Positions 4,063 through 27,226 of a stretch of 33,359 nucleotides of DNA are shown here, one piece after another. The stretch spans positions 1-33,359 of the forward strand of contig JANYHW010000045.1 in the NCBI GenBank assembly GCA_025358885.1, written 5' to 3'. The stretch's first letter is position 1; every line of letters begins with the position of its first letter. Source of the DNA: Cytophagales bacterium (lineage in GTDB: Bacteria; Bacteroidota; Bacteroidia; Cytophagales; Cyclobacteriaceae). The notes beneath the pieces are model-generated. The model was given only the letters and a program-made list of their open reading frames with translations, did no database searches and was not told where the DNA came from. The translations under genes and the position numbers were made by a program.

Positions 4063-5385
4063 CTAAGGGCTGCCTGGCGCCTGTCGTCTCATGGGTTGAA
4101 TCTTCCAATAGGTGAGTGACCGCCATACCCACTCCAAAGGGCCGAATAGGAAACTGTTGAGCCATGGTTTGCTGTAAGCCAGTTGAAATATCCAAATGAC
4201 AAACACAACGTAATAGATCTTGTAATATTCCACCTCCGCGTAGTAATTCAATCCATAGCCAAAGAATATCAGTGTGCAAATGATGGTATGCATAATGTAG
4301 TTTGTAAAGGCCATCTGTCCGACAGCCCGAAGCCTGTCGAGCAGAGCGGAAAACACATTGGACTTAACAACAAGCAAAATCAATGCAGCGTGTCCCATCA
4401 TCAAAAGAATCCGTTGCAGAGGGTAGACCAGATTCATCCAATTGATGGCATGGGTTTCAATGTAGCGAAGGGAGGCCTCGAGCGTTGGGAAATTGACATA
4501 GTTGTGATAAAAGTCCCACGTCACCAGAGGAAACCCAAGTCCATACCCGATGATGATTGTTTTTATGTACCGGGCCCGCGACCACTGCAATGTTAGAAAG
4601 CCCCATTTGTACAGGGCAATTCCGAGTAGCATCAGGGCCAAAGGATCCCAGATGCCGAAGACGAGATATTTTGTCTGACCGTCCCAGCTATTCTTCCGAA
4701 TGTATGTGGCCACCGTAGAGTAATCCGACTTCATGATACGGGTGTGATCAGCCGCATCTTCCTTGTTGGGAATCAGATCAATTTCAACCTCCCTCCATTC
4801 TTTCAACGCCAGATTTTGTAATTCCGTCAAATCAAGTTGGTTGTGCTGTGCTGCCACCGCCTCCACATAGGCCAGGCGCTTGGCCCTAATCCCCTGCATG
4901 AACATGGTCGTCATTGTAAATTCAACAATTGCCACCAACGGAACGGCCATCACCAGGTAGGTAGGTTTCATTTTCCTGAAAAGAAATGCGAGCATCCCGA
5001 TCACACCGTAGTAGTAGAGGATCTCACCTTCCCAAAGCAGGATGTGGGAGTGTATGAGACCGAACACAATAAGCCAGAACATGCGCCGGTAGAAGAGCAG
5101 GGTAGCGGATCCGCCAGTCCGCTCTTTATTAATAGTGAATAGAATGATGCCAGCGCCAAAGATGGCAGAGAACAATGCGCGCATTTTGCCTTCAAAGACA
5201 ATGATCTCTGCTGCCCTGACCCAAAAATTGATGTCCTGTGGATTGCTTTTGTACGCCTCGGAGGAATACTCCGCCATCGAAAACTCCGGGATATTCATCA
5301 ACAGAATTCCAAGCAGCGCCACGCCGCGAAGTATGTCCAGCGCCGCTATCCGATTTGATTCGGAAACGGGATTAAATATTGCCAT
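4063..5385 (-). CDS. DUF418 (YeiB-like) integral membrane protein
   Basis: A 440-residue polytopic membrane protein. The N-terminal motif, residues 11-31 with core LDILRGVALLGILLMN, is the hallmark of the heparan-alpha-glucosaminide N-acetyltransferase / DUF418 superfamily, whose members may be acyltransferases or transporters. The C-terminal third contains the conserved DUF418 region: GQMAFTNYIMHTII, and GPLEWVWRSLTY close to the end. I see about 9-10 hydrophobic segments, with a soluble loop around residues 165-235. The function of the family is unsettled. Upstream lies a promoter-like element on the minus strand (5406-5434). The next gene downstream is the S9 peptidase. Confidence 0.85.
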   Translation of the reverse strand: MAIFNPVSESNRIAALDILRGVALLGILLMNIPEFSMAEYSSEAYKSNPQDINFWVRAAEIIVFEGKMRALFSAIFGAGIILFTINKERTGGSATLLFYRRMFWLIVFGLIHSHILLWEGEILYYYGVIGMLAFLFRKMKPTYLVMAVPLVAIVEFTMTTMFMQGIRAKRLAYVEAVAAQHNQLDLTELQNLALKEWREVEIDLIPNKEDAADHTRIMKSDYSTVATYIRKNSWDGQTKYLVFGIWDPLALMLLGIALYKWGFLTLQWSRARYIKTIIIGYGLGFPLVTWDFYHNYVNFPTLEASLRYIETHAINWMNLVYPLQRILLMMGHAALILLVVKSNVFSALLDRLRAVGQMAFTNYIMHTIICTLIFFGYGLNYYAEVEYYKIYYVVFVIWIFQLAYSKPWLNSFLFGPLEWVWRSLTYWKIQPMRRQAPGSP

Positions 5386-5405
5386 CGGGCGGGGTGTTCA
5401 GTAGG

Positions 5406-5434
5406 CCAAAATAAAAGTAGCAATTTTACTCAAA
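5406..5434 (-). promoter_or_regulatory. Bacteroidota-type promoter for the DUF418 gene
   Basis: On the minus strand TTTG (5434-5431) is followed after 17 bp by TATTTTGG (5413-5406), a near match to the TAnnTTTG -7 consensus. It sits about 20 bp before the start codon at 5385. The spacing fits the primary sigma factor of this phylum, but the leader would be very short. Confidence 0.4.
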
Positions 5435-5512
5435 AATGCTGAAGCCTACCTGTCAGTCACAAGCGATGAATTCAAAATGGATTCATTAGCTTTACCTACT
5501 TTTTAATCTTAA

Positions 5513-7945
5513 ATGGCAGAAAACACCTACAAGTCCAATACCTTCAAGAAACCTGAAAAAGAAAAGAAGAGCAAAGGTTCCAAGTCTAAGTACCGTTTCA
5601 ATCTTGACTTTTTCAAAGATCCGCGGTTTCACCTGGCCCTGGGTTTTTTCTTGCTCATCATCTCTTTTTTCCTGCTGACAGCTTTTGTCTCCTATCTGTT
5701 TACCGGCAAGGCAGACCAAAGTGTTGTCGAGGGATTGGGAGATGCCACTATGCTCGAGTCCGGTGGTGATACCGACAACTGGCTTGGACTCTACGGTGCC
5801 ATCACCTCACATTATTTTATTTTTCGCTGGTTTGGAATTTCTGCCTTCTTCATTCCACCCTTGTTGTTTTTATTGGGCTTCAGGCTCGTCTTCAAACGGG
5901 AATTACTTTCATTTTTTTCAGCTTTTACTTTTTCATTGTTCGCAGGTCTCTGGCTCTGTCTGCTGATGGGCTACCTTACCCACAGCATTTCAGGTGCTAC
6001 TGAAGTCAGCTTCCTGAGCGGTGGCCTTGGTTACGAGCTGGCCTACATCACCGATAATCTATTGGGTTGGGGTACGTTTCTATTCCTTGTGCTTTCACTT
6101 TTTATATTCATTATCTATTTCTTCAACGTTACCTCCATCAATGCTTTCCAGGTAAAAGATCCGAAGCCAATTGGCAATGATGCCTTGATGCCTCTGGACA
6201 ACGCAGATTCTCCACCTTCCTATAGTGATGAGCGCGACATTTGGCCCGCCGAACCAGAACCTTTTCTTGTCGTGAAACCACCGGAAGAGCCCATAGCGCT
6301 TCCTGAAATAAAATTGGATATCGAACCTCCTAAGGTGGAGAAAAAGAAAGAAGAACCTGTCTTCACCATTGAAGAGCCTAGAGCAGAAACCGATGCGATC
6401 GCTGAAGGTTTGGTGGAGTCCCAGGGATTCTATGATCCAACATTGGACCTGAGCAGCTATAAATTTCCGCCGCTGGAGTTGCTCAATGAATATGAGGTAG
6501 GAAAGGTCCAGGTAACGCAGGAGGAACTCAACCAGAACAAGGACAAGATTCTCGCGACGCTTACCAATTTCAAAATTGGGATACAAAGCATTAAGGCAAC
6601 CATCGGACCGACAGTTACCTTGTATGAGATTGTGCCGGATGCCGGCATTAAGATATCGCGCATCAAGAACCTGGAAGATGATATCGCGCTGAGCTTGTCC
6701 GCCCTGGGTATTCGGATCATCGCACCCATTCCGGGAAAGGGTACCATTGGGATTGAAGTGCCGAATAAAAACCGCGAGATGGTGAGCATCCGGTCTGTGC
6801 TGGCTACCGAACGTTTCCAAAAGTCAGACAAAGACCTGCCCATTGCGATCGGGAAAACCATATCCAACGAACTGCTCGTCATAGATCTGGCCAAAATGCC
6901 GCACTTGCTGGTAGCGGGTGCCACGGGCCAGGGGAAATCGGTCGGACTGAATGTTATCCTGACCTCTCTATTATATAAGCTGCATCCGAGCCAACTCAAG
7001 TTTGTGCTGGTGGATCCAAAAAAGGTCGAGATGTCGCTGTTCAGCAAGATAGAACGTCATTATCTGGCCAAGCTACCCAACAGCGAAGAGGCAATCATTA
7101 CGGATACGAAGAAAGTGGTTCACACGCTAAACTCCCTTTGTATTGAAATGGAGAACCGTTATGAAATCATGAAGGATGCTGGGGCGAGGAATATCAAGGA
7201 GTACAATGCCAAGTTTGTTGGTCGAAAGCTCAACCCCAAAGAAGGTCACCGTTTTCTGCCTTATATTGTATTGGTAATTGATGAGTTGGCGGACTTAATG
7301 ATGACAGCCGGCAAAGAAGTGGAGACACCGATCGCGCGACTCGCTCAGCTTGCAAGGGCCATTGGGATACATTTGGTGGTGGCTACACAACGGCCTTCGG
7401 TGAATGTGATTACGGGTGTGATCAAGGCAAACTTCCCGGCGCGTCTTTCTTTCCGCGTTACATCTAAAGTCGACTCCCGCACCATTCTTGATACTGGGGG
7501 TGCCGATCAATTGGTGGGCATGGGCGACATGTTGTTCTCCTCCGGATCGGATGTTATACGACTACAAAGTCCTTTTGTCGATACCCCTGAGATTGAAAAG
7601 GTTTGTGATTTTATTGGCGCTCAACGTGGATATGCTTCTGCGTACATGCTCCCTGAGTTTGAAGGTGAAGACGAGGCCGGCGCAAGTGATGTGGATCTTG
7701 CTGATCGCGATGCACTCTTTGAAGAGGCAGCCCGGCTAATAGTAATGCATCAGCAGGGTAGTACATCATTGATCCAGCGCAAATTGAAACTAGGGTACAA
7801 CCGGGCAGGACGACTCATTGATCAGCTGGAAGCAGCGGGAATTGTGGGCCCATTCGAAGGATCGAAAGCGAGGGAGGTTTTGGTCAAGGACGAAATGAGT
7901 TTGGAACAATTATTGAATAGTCTTAATGAAAAGCACGGCCAATAA
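5513..7945 (+). CDS. ftsK: DNA translocase FtsK/SpoIIIE
   Basis: An 810-residue septal DNA pump that moves chromosome ends through the closing division septum and prepares dimer resolution. Residues about 40-205 hold four transmembrane segments, starting with HLALGFFLLIISFFLL. A linker rich in E, P and K follows (about 215-300), shorter than in E. coli. The motor domain has Walker A GATGQGKS (residues 469-476) and Walker B VLVIDELADL with Asp590-Glu591, then ATQRPSVNVITGVIKAN. The C-terminal winged-helix gamma domain (about 735-800, STSLIQRKLKLGYNRAGRL) reads oriented chromosomal motifs. The neighbour downstream is a LolA-like gene, the same order as ftsK-lolA in E. coli, which supports both calls. 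The start ATG has no clear Shine-Dalgarno sequence. Confidence 0.97.
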   Translation: MAENTYKSNTFKKPEKEKKSKGSKSKYRFNLDFFKDPRFHLALGFFLLIISFFLLTAFVSYLFTGKADQSVVEGLGDATMLESGGDTDNWLGLYGAITSHYFIFRWFGISAFFIPPLLFLLGFRLVFKRELLSFFSAFTFSLFAGLWLCLLMGYLTHSISGATEVSFLSGGLGYELAYITDNLLGWGTFLFLVLSLFIFIIYFFNVTSINAFQVKDPKPIGNDALMPLDNADSPPSYSDERDIWPAEPEPFLVVKPPEEPIALPEIKLDIEPPKVEKKKEEPVFTIEEPRAETDAIAEGLVESQGFYDPTLDLSSYKFPPLELLNEYEVGKVQVTQEELNQNKDKILATLTNFKIGIQSIKATIGPTVTLYEIVPDAGIKISRIKNLEDDIALSLSALGIRIIAPIPGKGTIGIEVPNKNREMVSIRSVLATERFQKSDKDLPIAIGKTISNELLVIDLAKMPHLLVAGATGQGKSVGLNVILTSLLYKLHPSQLKFVLVDPKKVEMSLFSKIERHYLAKLPNSEEAIITDTKKVVHTLNSLCIEMENRYEIMKDAGARNIKEYNAKFVGRKLNPKEGHRFLPYIVLVIDELADLMMTAGKEVETPIARLAQLARAIGIHLVVATQRPSVNVITGVIKANFPARLSFRVTSKVDSRTILDTGGADQLVGMGDMLFSSGSDVIRLQSPFVDTPEIEKVCDFIGAQRGYASAYMLPEFEGEDEAGASDVDLADRDALFEEAARLIVMHQQGSTSLIQRKLKLGYNRAGRLIDQLEAAGIVGPFEGSKAREVLVKDEMSLEQLLNSLNEKHGQ

Positions 7946-21319: not shown

Positions 21320-21715
21320 TCAGCGAGCCTCTTGCTCAATCAGGTCCCACAGATTACCATAGAGATCTGCAAAAACGGCTACCGTGCCATAAGGTTCCCT
21401 GGACGGTTTTCGCACTATGTTAATCCCCTGATCAAGTAGATTTTGATAGTCTCTTTCGAAATCATCCGTGTAGAGGAAAAGAAATACGCGGCCACCCGTT
21501 TGATTGCCGATGCGGGTTCGTTGCTCTTCATTCGCAGCTTTTGCCAGGAGCAGGCAGGTACCTGCGGAGCCGGGTGGTTGTACCCGCACCCACCGCTTGC
21601 TTGCGCTCAGCACGGTATCTTCCATCAGCGTAAAGTGTAGTTTGTTTGTATAGAACTCAATGGCATCGTCGTAGTCGTCAACAACCAGGGCGATGTGGGC
21701 AATGTGCTGATTCAA
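21320..21715 (-). CDS. VOC (glyoxalase/bleomycin resistance-like) family protein
   Basis: A 131-residue two-module metal-binding fold protein. The N-terminus HIAHIALVVDDYDDAIEFYTNKLHF is the standard VOC beta-alpha-beta start, and the C-terminus FADLYGNLWDLIEQ contains the usual Glu metal-ligand region. Candidate metal ligands are an N-terminal His of HIAHIAL and the Glu near the end. The frame is open upstream to an ATG at 21778, but that would overlap the next VOC gene by 41 bp and add an atypical extension. The TTG at 21715 gives a canonical start 22 bp after the preceding stop. Substrate unknown; relatives include glyoxalases, dioxygenases and antibiotic-binding proteins. Confidence 0.8.
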   Translation of the reverse strand: MNQHIAHIALVVDDYDDAIEFYTNKLHFTLMEDTVLSASKRWVRVQPPGSAGTCLLLAKAANEEQRTRIGNQTGGRVFLFLYTDDFERDYQNLLDQGINIVRKPSREPYGTVAVFADLYGNLWDLIEQEAR

Positions 21716-21737
21716 GAATGAATTGTTACTATCAATA

Positions 21738-22085
21738 CTACTTCCAATTGGGTTTGATGAAGTAAATCGCTGTCCCATCCGGATCGGTGAAATGCAAAAA
21801 TTGTCCTCCTTCTTCTTGCCGCTCCGTCAGGGGGATGGAGTGTTTCATCAACAAAGCCTTTGTCTCATCAAAATTATCTGTGGTAAACCCAATCGAAATG
21901 GTTCCTGAATGATGAGAGGTATGCTTGCTGGAAGGATGCAAGCCGATAACAATGCCGGGTGCCACCATTTGTGCGTAATGATTTTTCCACCGGTTTTTAG
22001 TGGTCAGGCCAATCGATTCATAAAAGGAAATGGCCTTGTCAAGGTCTTTTACGTTGATGGTGACATTGGATTCTTTGATAGCCAT
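21738..22085 (-). CDS. VOC family protein (second copy)
   Basis: A 115-residue VOC-fold protein. It begins MAIKESNVTINVKDLDKAISFYESIGL (motif NVKDLDKAISFYE) and ends FTDPDGTAIYFIKPNWK, the classic DPDG-x-x-x-x-F closing strand. It is diverged from its neighbour VOC protein, so they are not a recent duplication. It could form a homodimer or pair with the neighbour; VOC proteins usually dimerise to complete the active site. The usual N-terminal His ligand is replaced by Thr/Asn in this copy, so metal binding is doubtful. It begins 40 bp after the stop of the GCS2 ligase gene and may be co-transcribed with it. Confidence 0.85.
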   Translation of the reverse strand: MAIKESNVTINVKDLDKAISFYESIGLTTKNRWKNHYAQMVAPGIVIGLHPSSKHTSHHSGTISIGFTTDNFDETKALLMKHSIPLTERQEEGGQFLHFTDPDGTAIYFIKPNWK

Positions 22086-22125: not shown

Positions 22126-23367
22126 CTAGCCCAAAAACATCTTATTCTGAGCCAGGCAATCGGCCAGGCGTCGGTATGTGGCCTTGATGGAATCCAGTGA
22201 ATAATCATTATTGAGTGATCGCAATAAACGGTCCGAAAGGGTGCCTTCATCTAATATAACCTTAAGTTCAGGTCCCCAATGCTCGAGTTCTGAATCGGCT
22301 TGCATCAACAATCGGCCAAGGATATGCTTCCAGAGACCTTTGGCGGTGCACGGACTTTCAAAACCAAAGGCCATTGGAAATTCAGATGAGAGAATTTCTG
22401 CCTGCTGACCATTCACAGAGGTTTCATCTAAAATCCCGGCAAGGATCTCGGTCTTAGCTCTCATTTGTTCTTCCAGGTTACAGAACTTTTCATTCACCAG
22501 TGCCTTGATTGTTTCGATCACCAATGCCTGAATGGCCAGATCCGCAGGTGGACACTCCTGGATATCCATGATCCTAATTTCAATTGAACCACGATCAAAG
22601 CGAGGAATGGCACCCCGGGAGTTTACCCAGATGGGATTCAGGATATTCTCCGGGTCGAAGGGGGCGATGTCGGCCTTGATCTTATCGTAAATGGTATTCA
22701 AGTACTGTCGTTTTGAGAAGACTGCCTCCGGCACGACTTTTCCCGTAATGGAGGGAATTCGGGATTGATTGGTTTTATAGTACGACATCCTCATGTCCAC
22801 CGAACCCGTAACCGAGCCGTCGAGGATGGGAGAACTGGCACAGAGGGCTGGAAGGATTGGCAATACCAACCTGATGGCGGCATGCAGCTTGGCGAACTCC
22901 TCGTCATCATAGAATGGCAGATTCAAATGGGTGCTCTGCAGATTTGACCAGCCATGCCCGCGGCAGTCGAAAATTCTATTATAGATGTTATAGACTTCAT
23001 TGCTGTCGTGTGGCCAAAGCCGGGTTTCAGTTGCCGGGTTCATCCACGGGTGTGCCGCGGTGGGGAGAAGCATGGCATCTGATTTCGCCAGGATTTCATT
23101 GATGCGCGTTACATTGTCGGCGAAAGCACTGGCCAGGGTATTGAAATTACTCTCCGGCCTGGTGGATTTGAGTTCGATCACGTGCAGAACAAGTTCGTTG
23201 GACCACGTGATCATGTCATTTTCATAGTCGCTTCCGATATGCCCCAGGGCTTCTTTTAGCAATACGTCGGCAATGGGTAGAATGTCCAACGTGTTCCTGT
23301 CCACAATCATGTATTCCAATTCCACACCGTAGGCCTGGAAGATATGGTAGCGTACGGGCTGCGTCAT
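22126..23367 (-). CDS. GCS2-family carboxylate-amine ligase
   Basis: A 413-residue ATP-dependent ligase of the glutamate-cysteine ligase type 2 superfamily (YbdK-like), related to the glutamine-synthetase fold. The N-terminal GVELEYMIVDR (14-24) contributes the metal-binding Glu16 and Glu18. WSNELVLHVIELKS carries further acidic residues. LNLPFYDDEEF, ALCASSPILDGSVTG and RGSIEIRIMDIQECP complete the family pattern. It makes an amide bond between a carboxylate (typically of Glu) and an amine. The start codon overlaps the stop of the RimK-like gene as ATGA (4 bp), implying coupled translation and a shared pathway. The length is somewhat above the 370 or so usual for YbdK. The actual substrates are unknown; see the finding on the cassette. 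Confidence 0.92.
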   Translation of the reverse strand: MTQPVRYHIFQAYGVELEYMIVDRNTLDILPIADVLLKEALGHIGSDYENDMITWSNELVLHVIELKSTRPESNFNTLASAFADNVTRINEILAKSDAMLLPTAAHPWMNPATETRLWPHDSNEVYNIYNRIFDCRGHGWSNLQSTHLNLPFYDDEEFAKLHAAIRLVLPILPALCASSPILDGSVTGSVDMRMSYYKTNQSRIPSITGKVVPEAVFSKRQYLNTIYDKIKADIAPFDPENILNPIWVNSRGAIPRFDRGSIEIRIMDIQECPPADLAIQALVIETIKALVNEKFCNLEEQMRAKTEILAGILDETSVNGQQAEILSSEFPMAFGFESPCTAKGLWKHILGRLLMQADSELEHWGPELKVILDEGTLSDRLLRSLNNDYSLDSIKATYRRLADCLAQNKMFLG

Positions 23368-24812
23368 TTAGCGGATTTTATTTTTGAGAGGATTGCCTCA
23401 ATGATGATGTCGTAAAGTTTGTCTTTCAATATTTTGTCTTCGGTTCCCGCATCAATGTTAGGGTTGTCGTTGACCTCAATGATAATAAATTTCCCATCCA
23501 CTTCTTTCATGTCAACACCATACAATCCTTTTCCGATAAGGGACGTTGCCTTGAGAGCCACCTTGAGTAACCCCGCCGGGGCCTGATCCACCGGAATGCT
23601 CTCCACCTCGCCATCACGGAAGTTTTCTTTTTTGGCGTTCCAGTTGACGATTTGCCAATGTTTGCTTGCCATGAAATACTTGCACACATAGATCACCTGG
23701 CCGTCGATGATGCCCACACGCCAGTCGAATGGGGTGGGCAAAAATTCCTGCGCAATGATCAGGTCAGATTTTTCGAACATACTTTCACGCACCAGCTTAT
23801 ATTCTGACAGGTTGTTGATCTTCACTACCCCCTTGGAAAATGCTCCGTCGGGTTGTTTGAGGATAAAGGGAAAGTTCATCTTTTCCGGAACGGCCGTGCA
23901 GTTCTCCTCGGTAATCACGTATGACTTGGGTGTAAGGATCTTATTGGCGTTAAGCAATTCGTGGAGATACACTTTGTTGGTACACTTGAGAATGGACTCC
24001 GGATCGTCAATCACCGCCAGGCCAAGCGACTCGGCTTTCTTGGCAAACCGAAAGGTGTGGTGGTTGACATTGGTGGTTTCCCGGATAAACAACGCATCGT
24101 ATTGAATGAGTTTGTCGATATCATTCTTGTTGATAAACTCCGTGTTGAACCCCGCTTCCAGCGACGCTTTATAGAACCGTTTGAGTGCCCGGTCGTCGGA
24201 TGGGGGATTGGGGTCGTCGGGATTTATAAGGATGGCCAGGTCATATTTCTTTTTGTCAGGGCGGTAGTCGCGCTTGCGGAGCAAATACTTTTCAAGTGCG
24301 CTTTCCAGTATAGGCTGGTCGTCCTCGGGCATTTCATTCAGACTGATCGGCCGTATGCTTTGAAGGATCCATTTGTTTTTCTTAGAGAAACTGGCGCGCA
24401 CCAATGGAGCCTGAACAAGTTGAAAGAGTTGTAAAGCCAGCTTGTTGAGATGTTCTGACTGGGCTGTTCCAAAATAGATATTGAATTCCACCCGGTCGTA
24501 GGGCTCGTGCTTAAAAGTATTTTGAATGAGTGCATCGAAGTCCTGTGAGTCATCACGCAAGATAGAAGGGAACCTCAGGTCCTGGATGGTGGAAACTTCC
24601 GGCAGCACCTTGTGGCCACGTGCCTCGGCCAGGAGTGACACATAGTATCCTTCGCTCTGGTACTGGTATGATTTGCAGAGGTTGAGGATTTTCAGGTTTT
24701 TTATCGATTGATAAATTTCATCCGTGATGTATTTGGCAGGGGTGATTACCTCAACGTCCTCGAGGCGAAGGTTCCAGCTTTTGGGTTTTTCTACGATGAT
24801 TAATTTAGGCAT
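23364..24812 (-). CDS. RLAN-domain RimK-like ATP-grasp ligase
   Basis: A 482-residue two-part ligase. The N-terminal half (about 1-180) resembles the RLAN domain (RimK-like ATP-grasp N-terminal) and contains NLCKSYQYQSEGYYVSLLAEARGH split over 44-67. The C-terminal half (about 190-478) is an ATP-grasp fold: CTNKVYLHELL, FPFILKQPDGAFSKGVV (ATP-binding loop), IIAQEFLPTPFDWRVG, and the metal-binding end GVDMKEVDGKFIIIEVNDNPN (Asp434, Glu446, Asn448). RimK enzymes add glutamates to carboxylates through acyl phosphates. The frame is open to 24845, but the ATG at 24812 gives the normal family start (MPKLIIVEKP) and avoids the inverted repeat upstream. It is 93 bp downstream of the C39-like gene and overlaps the GCS2 gene by 4 bp. 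Confidence 0.93.
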   Translation of the reverse strand: MPKLIIVEKPKSWNLRLEDVEVITPAKYITDEIYQSIKNLKILNLCKSYQYQSEGYYVSLLAEARGHKVLPEVSTIQDLRFPSILRDDSQDFDALIQNTFKHEPYDRVEFNIYFGTAQSEHLNKLALQLFQLVQAPLVRASFSKKNKWILQSIRPISLNEMPEDDQPILESALEKYLLRKRDYRPDKKKYDLAILINPDDPNPPSDDRALKRFYKASLEAGFNTEFINKNDIDKLIQYDALFIRETTNVNHHTFRFAKKAESLGLAVIDDPESILKCTNKVYLHELLNANKILTPKSYVITEENCTAVPEKMNFPFILKQPDGAFSKGVVKINNLSEYKLVRESMFEKSDLIIAQEFLPTPFDWRVGIIDGQVIYVCKYFMASKHWQIVNWNAKKENFRDGEVESIPVDQAPAGLLKVALKATSLIGKGLYGVDMKEVDGKFIIIEVNDNPNIDAGTEDKILKDKLYDIIIEAILSKIKSAK

Positions 24813-24832
24813 GTAGCAGAAAAATTCTTTTG

Positions 24833-24891
24833 CCACAGATAGCACAGATTATCACTTACAATGCATCTGAGGCAATCTGTGTAATCTGTGG
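24833..24891. repeat. Imperfect inverted repeat of CACAGAT units
   Basis: Left arm CCACAGATAGCACAGATT (24833-24850) and right arm AATCTGTGTAATCTGTGG (24874-24891) are complementary at 16 of 18 positions. Each arm is itself a near-direct repeat of an ACAGAT unit at about 9-bp spacing. The loop is 23 nt. The element fills the 93-bp gap between the C39-like and RimK-like genes. Similar (CACAGATTA)n-type intergenic sequences are, from memory, dispersed in many bacterial genomes. Confidence 0.6.
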
Positions 24892-24904
24892 TTAATATCT
24901 CCAA

Positions 24905-25618
24905 TTATTTTGGTTCAATAATCAACAAGTTAGCATCATACGTCACAATGCCAAGCATGATGCTGTTGATGAGCCTGTCGAAGGTGACACTATAATATTG
25001 ACTCTTCAATGGGTTTGGATTCATCGGGTCGGCGAGGTACACTTCACTCGAAAGGGCATCAAAGCCGTTAATAATGGCGAAGTGCCCGACCGGCTCACCC
25101 TTTATGCTGTCGTACTTATTATTGACCGATATCTCCCGCGGTGTCGCATACAGGTAAGTTGCACTAAGCCCGGTGAGGATGGGTATGGACTTTCTTAAAT
25201 AGCTTTTGATGAGGTTGTCATCCAGCTCGTGATAGAGCATCTTACCACCTGCTTCCAGGAACTTGATGTACGCCCGACTGGCAACCAGCAACCGCCTGCG
25301 TTTGGATTTGTAAGCCATTTGACGCTTGAGGTTGTGGATCATTTTGCTGGAAGGCAATTTGAACCATGTTGGATCAAATACATTGAGGTTATAAGTGAAA
25401 ATGGACGCCTGATAACCTCGCTGTAAGGCATGATTCCCCATCATCACTGCCAGTGTGCCGCCATTCTTGAGTTGTTTTACTTCCCGGATCACCTGTTTGA
25501 GGCTGATAGCATCGTTGTAGTACTGGTACAAAGCATGAAGGCATGTCGGCCCACAAGTCACCTCATCCGGCTGCGCCTTGATATCAAAATTCAGGAAGAG
25601 TGCCTGTCGTTTGTGCAT
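24905..25618 (-). CDS. Papain-like C39-type cysteine peptidase (cytoplasmic)
   Basis: A 237-residue protein of the peptidase C39-like fold. The catalytic Cys22 lies in EVTCGPTCLHAL, the His is His179 in GHFAIING and the Asp is Asp197 in ADPMNP. Gln16 upstream of the Cys may form the oxyanion hole. Length fits a lone peptidase domain. There is no signal peptide, ABC-transporter fusion or membrane segment, so it probably acts in the cytoplasm. In known C39 domains the enzyme cleaves after a double-glycine leader, but this stand-alone type accompanies RLAN/ATP-grasp ligases (family knowledge). It heads the three-gene cassette and is the likeliest processing enzyme. No GG-leader peptide gene is visible nearby. 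An alternative role is an amidohydrolase that reverses the ligase reaction. Confidence 0.88.
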   Translation of the reverse strand: MHKRQALFLNFDIKAQPDEVTCGPTCLHALYQYYNDAISLKQVIREVKQLKNGGTLAVMMGNHALQRGYQASIFTYNLNVFDPTWFKLPSSKMIHNLKRQMAYKSKRRRLLVASRAYIKFLEAGGKMLYHELDDNLIKSYLRKSIPILTGLSATYLYATPREISVNNKYDSIKGEPVGHFAIINGFDALSSEVYLADPMNPNPLKSQYYSVTFDRLINSIMLGIVTYDANLLIIEPK

Positions 25619-26551: not shown

Positions 26552-27226
26552 TTAGTGGCAGGCCTTGTTAAACTTCCTGAGCTTATAATAATTGTACGGA
26601 AGGGGAGCGAGGAATCCGGCCACCATGGCCACGATCAAAGCTGTCCAATACATTGGATTTCCAAAGGCGGCTTTTCCGCCAGTGATCATGAAGTCGGTCG
26701 CATTCATAACCAATTCCATCGCAATCATCGATAGGAATGACATGGAGATGGCAGTCTGGAATGCCAATTTCCAGTTAAATTGTTCCCGCCAATGAAGCAG
26801 AATGGTTTCCAGAGATACACTGGTTACGAGGCCAGCAACAATAGCCAGTACCATTTGCAGTGCCATTGGAGTGCCAGGATAATAACCCTGGAGGAAGATC
26901 ACCATAAAGAAATCACCGATTGAGCATCCGATCAGACAATTCAAGGTATTCAGTGCCGCGCGGCCCCAGATATGGGAATCGGTCCAGAATCCGATCGGAG
27001 AAGGTGCTTCAATATGTCCATTTTCTGAAATCTGGTAGGAGGGATAAGGACTCAGTGCCTGTCGAAGAGAGGTGAGGGCCAGGGGTTGATCCACCTCAAC
27101 TTCAGCCATCGACTGTTCAAGGGATACAGTGACTTTCCGGATCTCCTTCACTGAGGCAAGAGCCTTTTCAACGGTTCCAGCGCATCCGTTGCATGTCATA
27201 CCTTTAATTGAAAACGTTTGTGTCAT
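26552..27226 (-). CDS. Heavy-metal-associated domain fused to DUF4396 membrane domain
   Basis: A 224-residue fusion. Residues 1-68 form a ferredoxin-like HMA domain with the metal-binding motif GMTCNGC (Cys12, Cys15), as in copper chaperones and P-type ATPase leaders. Residues about 85-220 form a small polytopic membrane domain of the DUF4396 type: LNCLIGCSIGDFFMVIF, LVTSVSLETILLHWREQFNWKLAFQTAISMS (split), NPMYWTALIVAMVAGFLAPLPYNYYKL. A further His/Cys end (ACH) may add ligands. Cys97 and Cys101 in LNCLIGCS lie in a membrane helix and could receive the metal. A metal-transfer or sequestration role is inferred. A palindrome lies right upstream (27231-27243). No copper ATPase or CsoR gene is adjacent. 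Confidence 0.85.
   Translation of the reverse strand: MTQTFSIKGMTCNGCAGTVEKALASVKEIRKVTVSLEQSMAEVEVDQPLALTSLRQALSPYPSYQISENGHIEAPSPIGFWTDSHIWGRAALNTLNCLIGCSIGDFFMVIFLQGYYPGTPMALQMVLAIVAGLVTSVSLETILLHWREQFNWKLAFQTAISMSFLSMIAMELVMNATDFMITGGKAAFGNPMYWTALIVAMVAGFLAPLPYNYYKLRKFNKACH

Follow-up and report, generated by a model that had tools for sequence, protein, structure and literature searches.

A peptidase and two amide-forming ligases encoded side by side in a Cytophagales bacterium: a candidate unit for synthesis and turnover of a small peptide

Here, a cassette of three genes coding for a papain-like peptidase, an RLAN/ATP-grasp ligase and a GCS2 carboxylate-amine ligase was analyzed in the window, i.e., the whole stretch of 33,359 nucleotides from a Cytophagales bacterium (contig JANYHW010000045.1), and compared with related loci. 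The genes are linked across genomes, belong to recognizable families and retain their catalytic residues, and either a GCS2 or a GNAT domain is encoded beside the same kind of ligase. We propose a self-contained cytosolic unit that makes and turns over a small non-ribosomal peptide, a reading to which we give an even chance. Of the two readings offered in an earlier note, building and trimming of a peptide or tagging and untagging of a protein, the former fits best.

The three minus-strand open reading frames reported earlier are all present, and all three deduced proteins pass Pfam cut-offs. The peptidase gene (24905..25618, minus strand) encodes a stand-alone protein of 237 aa that scored 35.7 bits with Peptidase_C39_2 (PF13529; cut-off 24) and 26.9 bits with PF03412 (cut-off 22). 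Its C39-like catalytic domain is shared with the leader peptidases of bacteriocin exporters, but these are fused to an ABC exporter, whereas the window peptidase carries no transporter domain. The claimed catalytic residues were invariant in an alignment of 93 sequences, some of them truncated and with gaps left out (Cys22 in 86/86, His179 in 89/89, Asp197 in 89/89), and Gln16 is presumably the oxyanion residue by analogy with papain. The structure model (pLDDT 94) matched the isopeptidase PeiR (E 8.5e-6) and C39 domains in Foldseek searches and, more weakly, phytochelatin synthase Alr0975 (E about 0.01); the substrate of phytochelatin synthase is glutathione.

The ligase with an RLAN domain and a RimK/LysX/ArgX-like ATP-grasp half (23364..24812, minus strand) comprises 482 aa from a conserved ATG, which is residue 12 of the longest ORF (23364-24845, GTG start at 24845). 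It scored 151.8 bits with the RLAN domain (PF14401; cut-off 25) and 41.3 bits with the Pfam RimK domain (cut-off 21), and stayed below the cut-offs of the RimK family alpha-L-glutamate ligase model TIGR00768 (85.5 vs 143.4 bits) and of the glutathione synthase GshB model NF003573 (19.7 vs 272 bits). The metal ligands named before, Asp434, Glu446 and Asn448, correspond to D445, E457 and N459 of the long ORF and are invariant in 37 aligned sequences. In the structure model (pLDDT 83) the ATP-grasp half resembles ArgX, LysX, RimK and Ddl; all 50 Foldseek matches listed were ATP-grasp enzymes, and the RLAN half gave no functional pointer. The GCS2 gene (22126..23367, minus strand, 413 aa) overlaps the ligase gene as ATGA, its ATG lying at 23367-23365 and the ligase TGA at 23366-23364 according to the ORF coordinates. 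Its product belongs to an unnamed subfamily and scored 76.1 bits with GCS2 (PF04107; cut-off 21), while staying below the cut-off of the YbdK carboxylate-amine ligase model TIGR02050 (47.1 vs 176.4 bits). Glu16 and Glu18, to which we ascribe a metal-binding role, were each conserved in 88/88 sequences of an alignment of 100, again with truncated members and with gaps left out. The subfamily matches YbdK (1r8g) distantly (E 0.0015), and glutamate is assumed as its putative substrate from such distant relatives only.

Among 395 genomes of the phylum, the GCS2 subfamily (E ≤ 1e-20) was detected in 30, in all 30 beside a stand-alone RLAN ligase, and the peptidase (E ≤ 1e-15) in 27, all of them inside the 30 GCS2 genomes; these limits were set by us, as was that of 1e-10 used below, so weaker matches are missed. 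The claim of a co-conserved three-gene cassette is thereby borne out, the linkage exceeding chance at a hypergeometric probability of about 1e-34, and the accompanying check across homologues returned invariant catalytic residues in the aligned sequences. RLAN occurs in 44 of the 395 genomes, with two weak matches (G155, G370). Moreover, the three cassette proteins diverge in parallel (r 0.71-0.72 over 67 loci). In a neighbourhood survey, 123 of 124 sources had an RLAN match (L046 had none) and 121 loci were kept after two duplicate contigs were dropped, some sources stopping at contig ends. In relatives, genes were predicted with a simple ORF rule, which misses some in G+C-rich genomes, partners were counted by tblastn, and the sequences for the alignments (A2-A4) came from loci identified via RLAN. 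Peptidase and RLAN without a GCS2 match were present in 3/121 loci, two of these not at a contig end, an N-formylglutamate-amidohydrolase-like (FGase) gene and RLAN alone in 1/121 and RLAN without any partner in 2/121, so GCS2 is not strictly obligate. Beside the cassette, no further gene family held a constant place among 98 GCS2 loci (ORFs of at least 90 aa, 7.5 kb), and the largest neighbour cluster, unannotated like the others, comprised 11 loci at scattered positions. Because no neighbour holds a constant place, no linked exporter or large precursor is indicated; as to a GG-leader precursor gene, of which the earlier note saw none, the clustering covered ORFs of at least 90 aa. The two- to four-gene unit is found under more than ten phylum-level labels in the record titles; the scan of genome contigs retained the 80 best among at least 587 relatives, and most carriers come from metagenome assemblies, so that these labels may include binning errors. 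By the same titles several carriers are marine, and others come from groundwater, horse faeces and palsa; Chryseolinea serpens DSM 24574 is a named environmental relative.

The FGase gene lies directly behind GCS2 in 20 of the 30 cassette genomes and is absent from the window cassette; in one relative of the neighbourhood survey, L083, it is about 3 kb off instead. Its family name points to a hydrolase acting on an N-acyl amino acid. Since the peptidase is missing in 3/30 and FGase in 10/30 cassette genomes, neither is obligate. In a hand-picked set of 72 of the 395 genomes (30 with the cassette, 12 with GNAT-RLAN and 30 others), the cassette FGase subfamily (E ≤ 1e-10) occurred in 0/12 GNAT-RLAN genomes and 0/30 of the others. 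The cassette FGase profile had no match in the host genome at E ≤ 1e-10, and the host's own FGase, the only one found in this genome, was rejected as a relocated cassette member (about 20-25% identity over the eight best matches listed). In the window, the FGase position of many relatives is held by a VOC (glyoxalase-like) gene (21738..22085, minus strand), located 40 nt behind GCS2 and overlapped by a second VOC gene (21320..21778, minus strand). Neither is a conserved member, and the suggestion that VOC genes are extra members did not hold: in the gene lists of relatives (ORFs of at least 70 aa), none was picked out up to five or six genes away from RLAN.

The link to GNAT acetyltransferases suggested at the same time was confirmed, although GNAT substitutes for GCS2 instead of joining it. 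In other genomes, GNAT replaces GCS2 either fused to the RLAN ligase or fused to a C39-like DUF3335 peptidase beside RLAN, and its domain is RimI-like with 64.7 and 68.5 bits, under the cut-off of 86.4. A GNAT-DUF3335 (PF11814) gene adjoins the RLAN ligase gene in Azospirillum and Tistrella, and a Bacteroidota locus, L045, whose RLAN match is weak, was assigned to this type by similarity to their proteins. Neither a full-length GCS2 nor an FGase nor a cassette-type peptidase was found beside the GNAT-DUF3335 genes, which sets them apart from the cassette, and the DUF3335 and cassette peptidases belong to different, remotely related families (hhalign probability 81). Elsewhere, DUF3335 was detected in 1 of the 72 genomes and below the cut-off, this set being without G155, which holds L045.

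Glutathione is made by a GCS/GCS2-type GshA followed by the ATP-grasp enzyme GshB, yielding a gamma-glutamyl tripeptide. The cassette likewise pairs a GCS-type with an ATP-grasp ligase, the two kinds that act in succession in glutathione synthesis, but its ATP-grasp enzyme is RLAN/RimK-like, its GCS2 subfamily is distant and hydrolases lie within the operon. Following this logic with different enzymes, the GCS2 enzyme would link an amine to a carboxylate, which is most likely glutamate's gamma-carboxylate, and the RLAN/ATP-grasp ligase would next activate a carboxylate of the resulting intermediate and attach a second amino acid. We infer these substrates and this order of steps, as well as a product that is a metabolite and hydrolases that serve it: the papain-like peptidase, joined by the FGase-like hydrolase in genomes that have it, may cleave amide bonds in the product or in by-products for recycling, editing or trimming. 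A passage in PMC4431377 describes linked peptide ligases as often acting successively, as for glutathione. Where GNAT stands instead of GCS2, the product would carry an acetyl rather than a glutamyl cap, so that the GCS2/GNAT exchange leads to a direct prediction on the cap. The wider proposal that an as yet undescribed peptide of low molecular weight, a metabolite or cofactor, is made by GCS2 and RLAN, or with the other cap by GNAT and RLAN, in many phyla and occurs alongside bacillithiol in Bacteroidota is possible, and we hold it more tentatively. BshC was found in 384 of the 395 genomes, and the 11 genomes without it share none with the 44 RLAN genomes, so a replacement of bacillithiol by the cassette is not supported.

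The ligases might instead attach residues, glutamyl or others, to a distantly encoded protein, from which the peptidase and the FGase-like enzyme would remove them. The closeness of the ATP-grasp half to RimK/LysX/ArgX, with RimK itself modifying a protein, the resemblance of the peptidase fold to an isopeptidase and the similarity of the alternative GNAT domain to RimI, another protein modifier, are in line with this; nevertheless, we consider it unlikely, since the GCS2 enzymes known to us are ligases acting on small molecules and no neighbour holds a constant place beside the cassette. Dependence on LysW, the carrier of the related LysX/ArgX ligases, was not supported: LysW was not found in the host genome and was found in 3 of 25 RLAN genomes (21 with the cassette, 4 with GNAT-RLAN), leaving 22/25 without it. 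The pairing of ligase and protease in RimK/RimB (PMC12239564), which act on ribosomal protein S6, would provide a model, but the cassette lacks a RimB-like (aspartic) protease and has an RLAN domain and GCS2. Were the hydrolases the core of a salvage or degradation unit, with ligases that re-charge fragments, for example of imported cell-wall or glutathione-like peptides, the likeness of the peptidase to pseudomurein endoisopeptidase and weakly to phytochelatin synthase, the FGase family's presumed N-acyl amino acid substrate and the 3/121 loci with peptidase and RLAN but no GCS2 would be accommodated. This is improbable in our view, because across the phylum genomes surveyed it is the peptidase and the FGase that get lost while the two ligases stay paired (30/30), and no uptake system, among clusters that are unannotated, holds a constant place beside the cassette.

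A product serving as compatible solute or storage dipeptide, similar to N-acetylglutaminylglutamine amide (NAGGN), would agree with the marine origin of several carriers and with the general plan that GNAT-RLAN fusions share with NAGGN synthetase, also a GNAT/ATP-grasp protein. We regard it as quite improbable: other carriers come from groundwater, horse faeces and palsa, and the NAGGN synthetase model, which we take to be TIGR03103, was not among the 15 families for the window ligase nor the 18 for the L042 fusion (for L034, 25 of 37 families were covered). As for RiPP maturation, in which the C39-like peptidase would cleave a leader and the ATP-grasp enzyme cyclise the core peptide, graspetides are RiPPs made by ATP-grasp ligases (PMC8939145). 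The peptidase gene without a transporter fusion, the closely packed genes of the relatives with little room for a precursor and the lack of a constant neighbour of at least 90 aa, the lower bound of the clustering, render it highly improbable. The small non-ribosomal peptide is the reading retained here. With its two to four genes and conserved active sites, such a closed unit is a ready target for naming a possibly widespread small peptide.

A role in anti-phage defence was rejected, as neither the three proteins of the window cassette nor the one FGase included matched any PADLOC-DB family at E ≤ 0.001, and so was phage carriage, for which two weak partial matches only were obtained. The general kind of gene group is credited to Iyer and colleagues, whose survey reportedly extended to peptidases, to RLAN by name or to this set of genes. 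By its title and the passages citing it, their study deals with linked ATP-grasp, COOH-NH2 ligase and GNAT peptide ligases (Iyer et al., 2009, Mol Biosyst 5:1636). Among the papers listed by full-text searches, judged mostly by titles and beginnings of abstracts and with subscription papers mostly outside, none dealt with this gene set or assigned it a product.

Finally, the tight arrangement described for the cassette applies to the two ligase genes but not to the junction of peptidase and ligase, where a gap of 92 nt (24813..24904, minus strand) compares with less than about 60 nt in most relatives (13 junctions read, one of them misassigned). The gap contains an imperfect hairpin with arms at 24833-24850 and 24874-24891 and a folding z of -3.8, and its repeat arm has a single occurrence in the genome with up to one mismatch allowed.

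The peptidase, RLAN/ATP-grasp and GCS2 genes described in the earlier note were recovered in that order on the minus strand, together with the overlap of the two ligase genes: the papain-like peptidase (237 amino acids, 25618-24905) is first in transcription order, followed by the RLAN/ATP-grasp ligase, with a conserved ATG start at 24812 (24845, a GTG, for the longest reading frame) and a stop at 23364, and by the GCS2 ligase (413 amino acids, 23367-22126), the start of which lies across the stop of the ligase gene before it. The RLAN domain was reportedly defined by the group behind the 2009 work of Iyer et al. All three proteins pass their Pfam cut-offs and fall short of those of their best NCBIfam models, the scores being 47.1 bits against 176.4 for GCS2 (YbdK model), 85.5 against 143.4 for the ligase (RimK family model) and 20.9 against 150 for the peptidase (PA2778-type peptidase model). 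The host draft genome comprises 3.84 Mb, of which the window is one 33-kb contig, and, within the named collection, Flammeovirgaceae/Cyclobacteriaceae draft genomes and Chryseolinea serpens are its closest relatives, with ligase identities of 70-80%. The gap between peptidase and ligase (24813-24904), which is also long in the relatives L033 and L078 with different sequence, holds an imperfect hairpin (z -3.8) whose repeat arm occurs once in the genome; the window gave no Rfam match at gathering scores and nothing from ARAGORN. An HMA (heavy-metal-associated) domain fused to a DUF4396 domain is encoded at 26552-27226 on the minus strand.

Co-conservation of the three genes, which the earlier note had set as a test, was borne out across 395 Bacteroidota genomes. 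RLAN is present in 44 of them and the GCS2 subfamily in 30 (profile A3, E <= 1e-20), adjoining RLAN in 30/30, while the peptidase (profile A2, E <= 1e-15) occurs in 27, every one within these 30, and is missing from G198, G226 and G355; the hypergeometric values were 1e-34 for GCS2 and 9e-39 for the peptidase. The remaining 14 RLAN genomes comprise two weak matches and 12 with a GNAT domain fused to RLAN, the latter carrying neither GCS2 nor peptidase of the cassette subfamilies. Moreover, identities of the three proteins covary pairwise (r 0.71-0.72 over 67 loci), with 0 of 500 permutations as high.

The predicted active sites likewise held up in the alignments: Gln16 and Cys22 (both 86/86) and His179 and Asp197 (both 89/89) of the peptidase, Glu16 and Glu18 of GCS2 (88/88, besides many other invariant polar residues) and the ATP-grasp Asp, Glu and Asn (37 sequences), which we take to be the metal site, are invariant, which makes it very likely that all three proteins are active as enzymes. 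For the modelled peptidase (pLDDT 94) the best match was the pseudomurein endoisopeptidase PeiR (E 8.5e-6); C39 domains came next, and phytochelatin synthase Alr0975 stood lower in the list (E about 0.01). The likeness is of fold level only, since query-normalised TM-scores lie near 0.5. The ligase model (pLDDT 83) matched ATP-grasp ligases, with the lowest E-values for Ddl and the top target-normalised TM-scores for ArgX/LysX (0.78-0.84); the RLAN half had no structural match of its own among the 50 matches listed.

In many relatives an N-formylglutamate-amidohydrolase-like gene (FGase), mostly of 220-260 codons, lies directly behind GCS2. Two examples scored 80.3 and 69.3 bits against PF05013 (cut-off 28.9), the closest solved structure is 2odf (E 1e-37), and all 29 aligned sequences keep a Cys-Glu-His motif and two histidines after it. 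The subfamily profile (E <= 1e-10) detected FGase in 20/30 cassette genomes, always at the cassette, and in 0/42 others tested; L083, another relative, has it at a distance of about 3 kb. The host genome has no cassette-type FGase at this threshold and carries two VOC genes behind GCS2 instead; VOC had been suggested earlier as an extra member, and no such gene was flagged next to the cassette of relatives.

A wider survey, its loci found via RLAN itself, covered 121 sources after two duplicates were dropped and one locus without RLAN was set aside. RLAN was accompanied by peptidase, GCS2 and FGase in 56, by peptidase and GCS2 in 32, by GNAT in 17, by GCS2 and FGase in five, by GCS2 alone in five, by the peptidase without a GCS2 match in three, by FGase alone in one and by none of these in two, losses that are upper bounds because some sources stop at contig ends. 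Around the 98 loci with GCS2 no family held a constant place: the biggest of the unannotated neighbour clusters covered 11 loci at scattered positions, and the others were mostly lineage-local. At L048 (G179), GCS2 lies in two overlapping frames and the start of the called RLAN protein aligns poorly, reflecting broken genes or sequencing errors.

Other partners were also seen. In both an Azospirillum and a Tistrella plasmid, RLAN is preceded by a fusion of GNAT with a DUF3335 C39-like peptidase (281 and 282 bits), and a similar pair occurs in Bacteroidota at L045, where the RLAN match is weak; DUF3335 matches the cassette peptidase remotely (hhalign probability 81). A passage of PMC10318531, crediting Iyer et al. 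(2009), describes DUF3335 as often fused to GNAT domains. An 11-kb stretch of Pseudomonas aeruginosa plasmid pZYPA1927 (L158) has an RLAN ligase at 4902-6491 and lacks the cassette partners; glutamate/aspartate transporter genes lie on its opposite strand. A Legionella adelaidensis plasmid record, beginning at RLAN with the upstream side outside it, reads RLAN-GCS2-FGase (annotated as RimK family protein, glutamate-cysteine ligase family protein and N-formylglutamate amidohydrolase). The RLAN ligase is therefore the constant part, in a survey itself made through RLAN, and the partner predicted to add the glutamyl or acetyl group is the variable one. GNAT, suggested earlier as an extra member to look for, is indeed linked to RLAN through fusions and GNAT-DUF3335 pairs, but it alternates with GCS2. 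At a verrucomicrobial locus (L111, 2080-6273), GNAT and RLAN genes are followed by a PLP decarboxylase gene (PF02784/PF00278), by eye diaminopimelate-decarboxylase-like, and one that, again by eye, resembles dapA, a possible lysine/DAP clue from one locus.

The absence of a gene family at a constant place around the cassette argues for a small cytosolic product rather than an exported RiPP. Because the two linked ligases differ in fold, they suggest two successive bond-forming steps, in keeping with a general statement in part of PMC4431377 on linked peptide ligases acting in succession, and since GCS2 and GNAT alternate, either may supply an N-terminal cap; substrates and step order we infer. 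For the hydrolases, a part in turnover or editing is more likely than an essential step, because across the phylum they can be lost where the two ligases remain side by side, although the three sources with peptidase and RLAN and no GCS2 match run counter to this. A replacement for bacillithiol was rejected, BshC being present in 384/395 genomes and RLAN in 0 of the 11 without it, as was dependence on LysW, which is absent from most carriers tested. The cassette is not in PADLOC, and none of the papers listed by full-text searches treats this gene set; passages of PMC10318531 and PMC4431377 trace linked amidoligases as a general kind to Iyer et al. (2009), so the kind is already known and the cassette is a further member. 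The host genome has a second amidoligase-like cluster (L047, contig C46, 138-4404), which comprises a GCS2 protein scoring 220 bits, a class-I glutamine amidotransferase and two proteins without a Pfam match, one of 347 aa that is ATP-grasp-like by eye and one of 397 aa.
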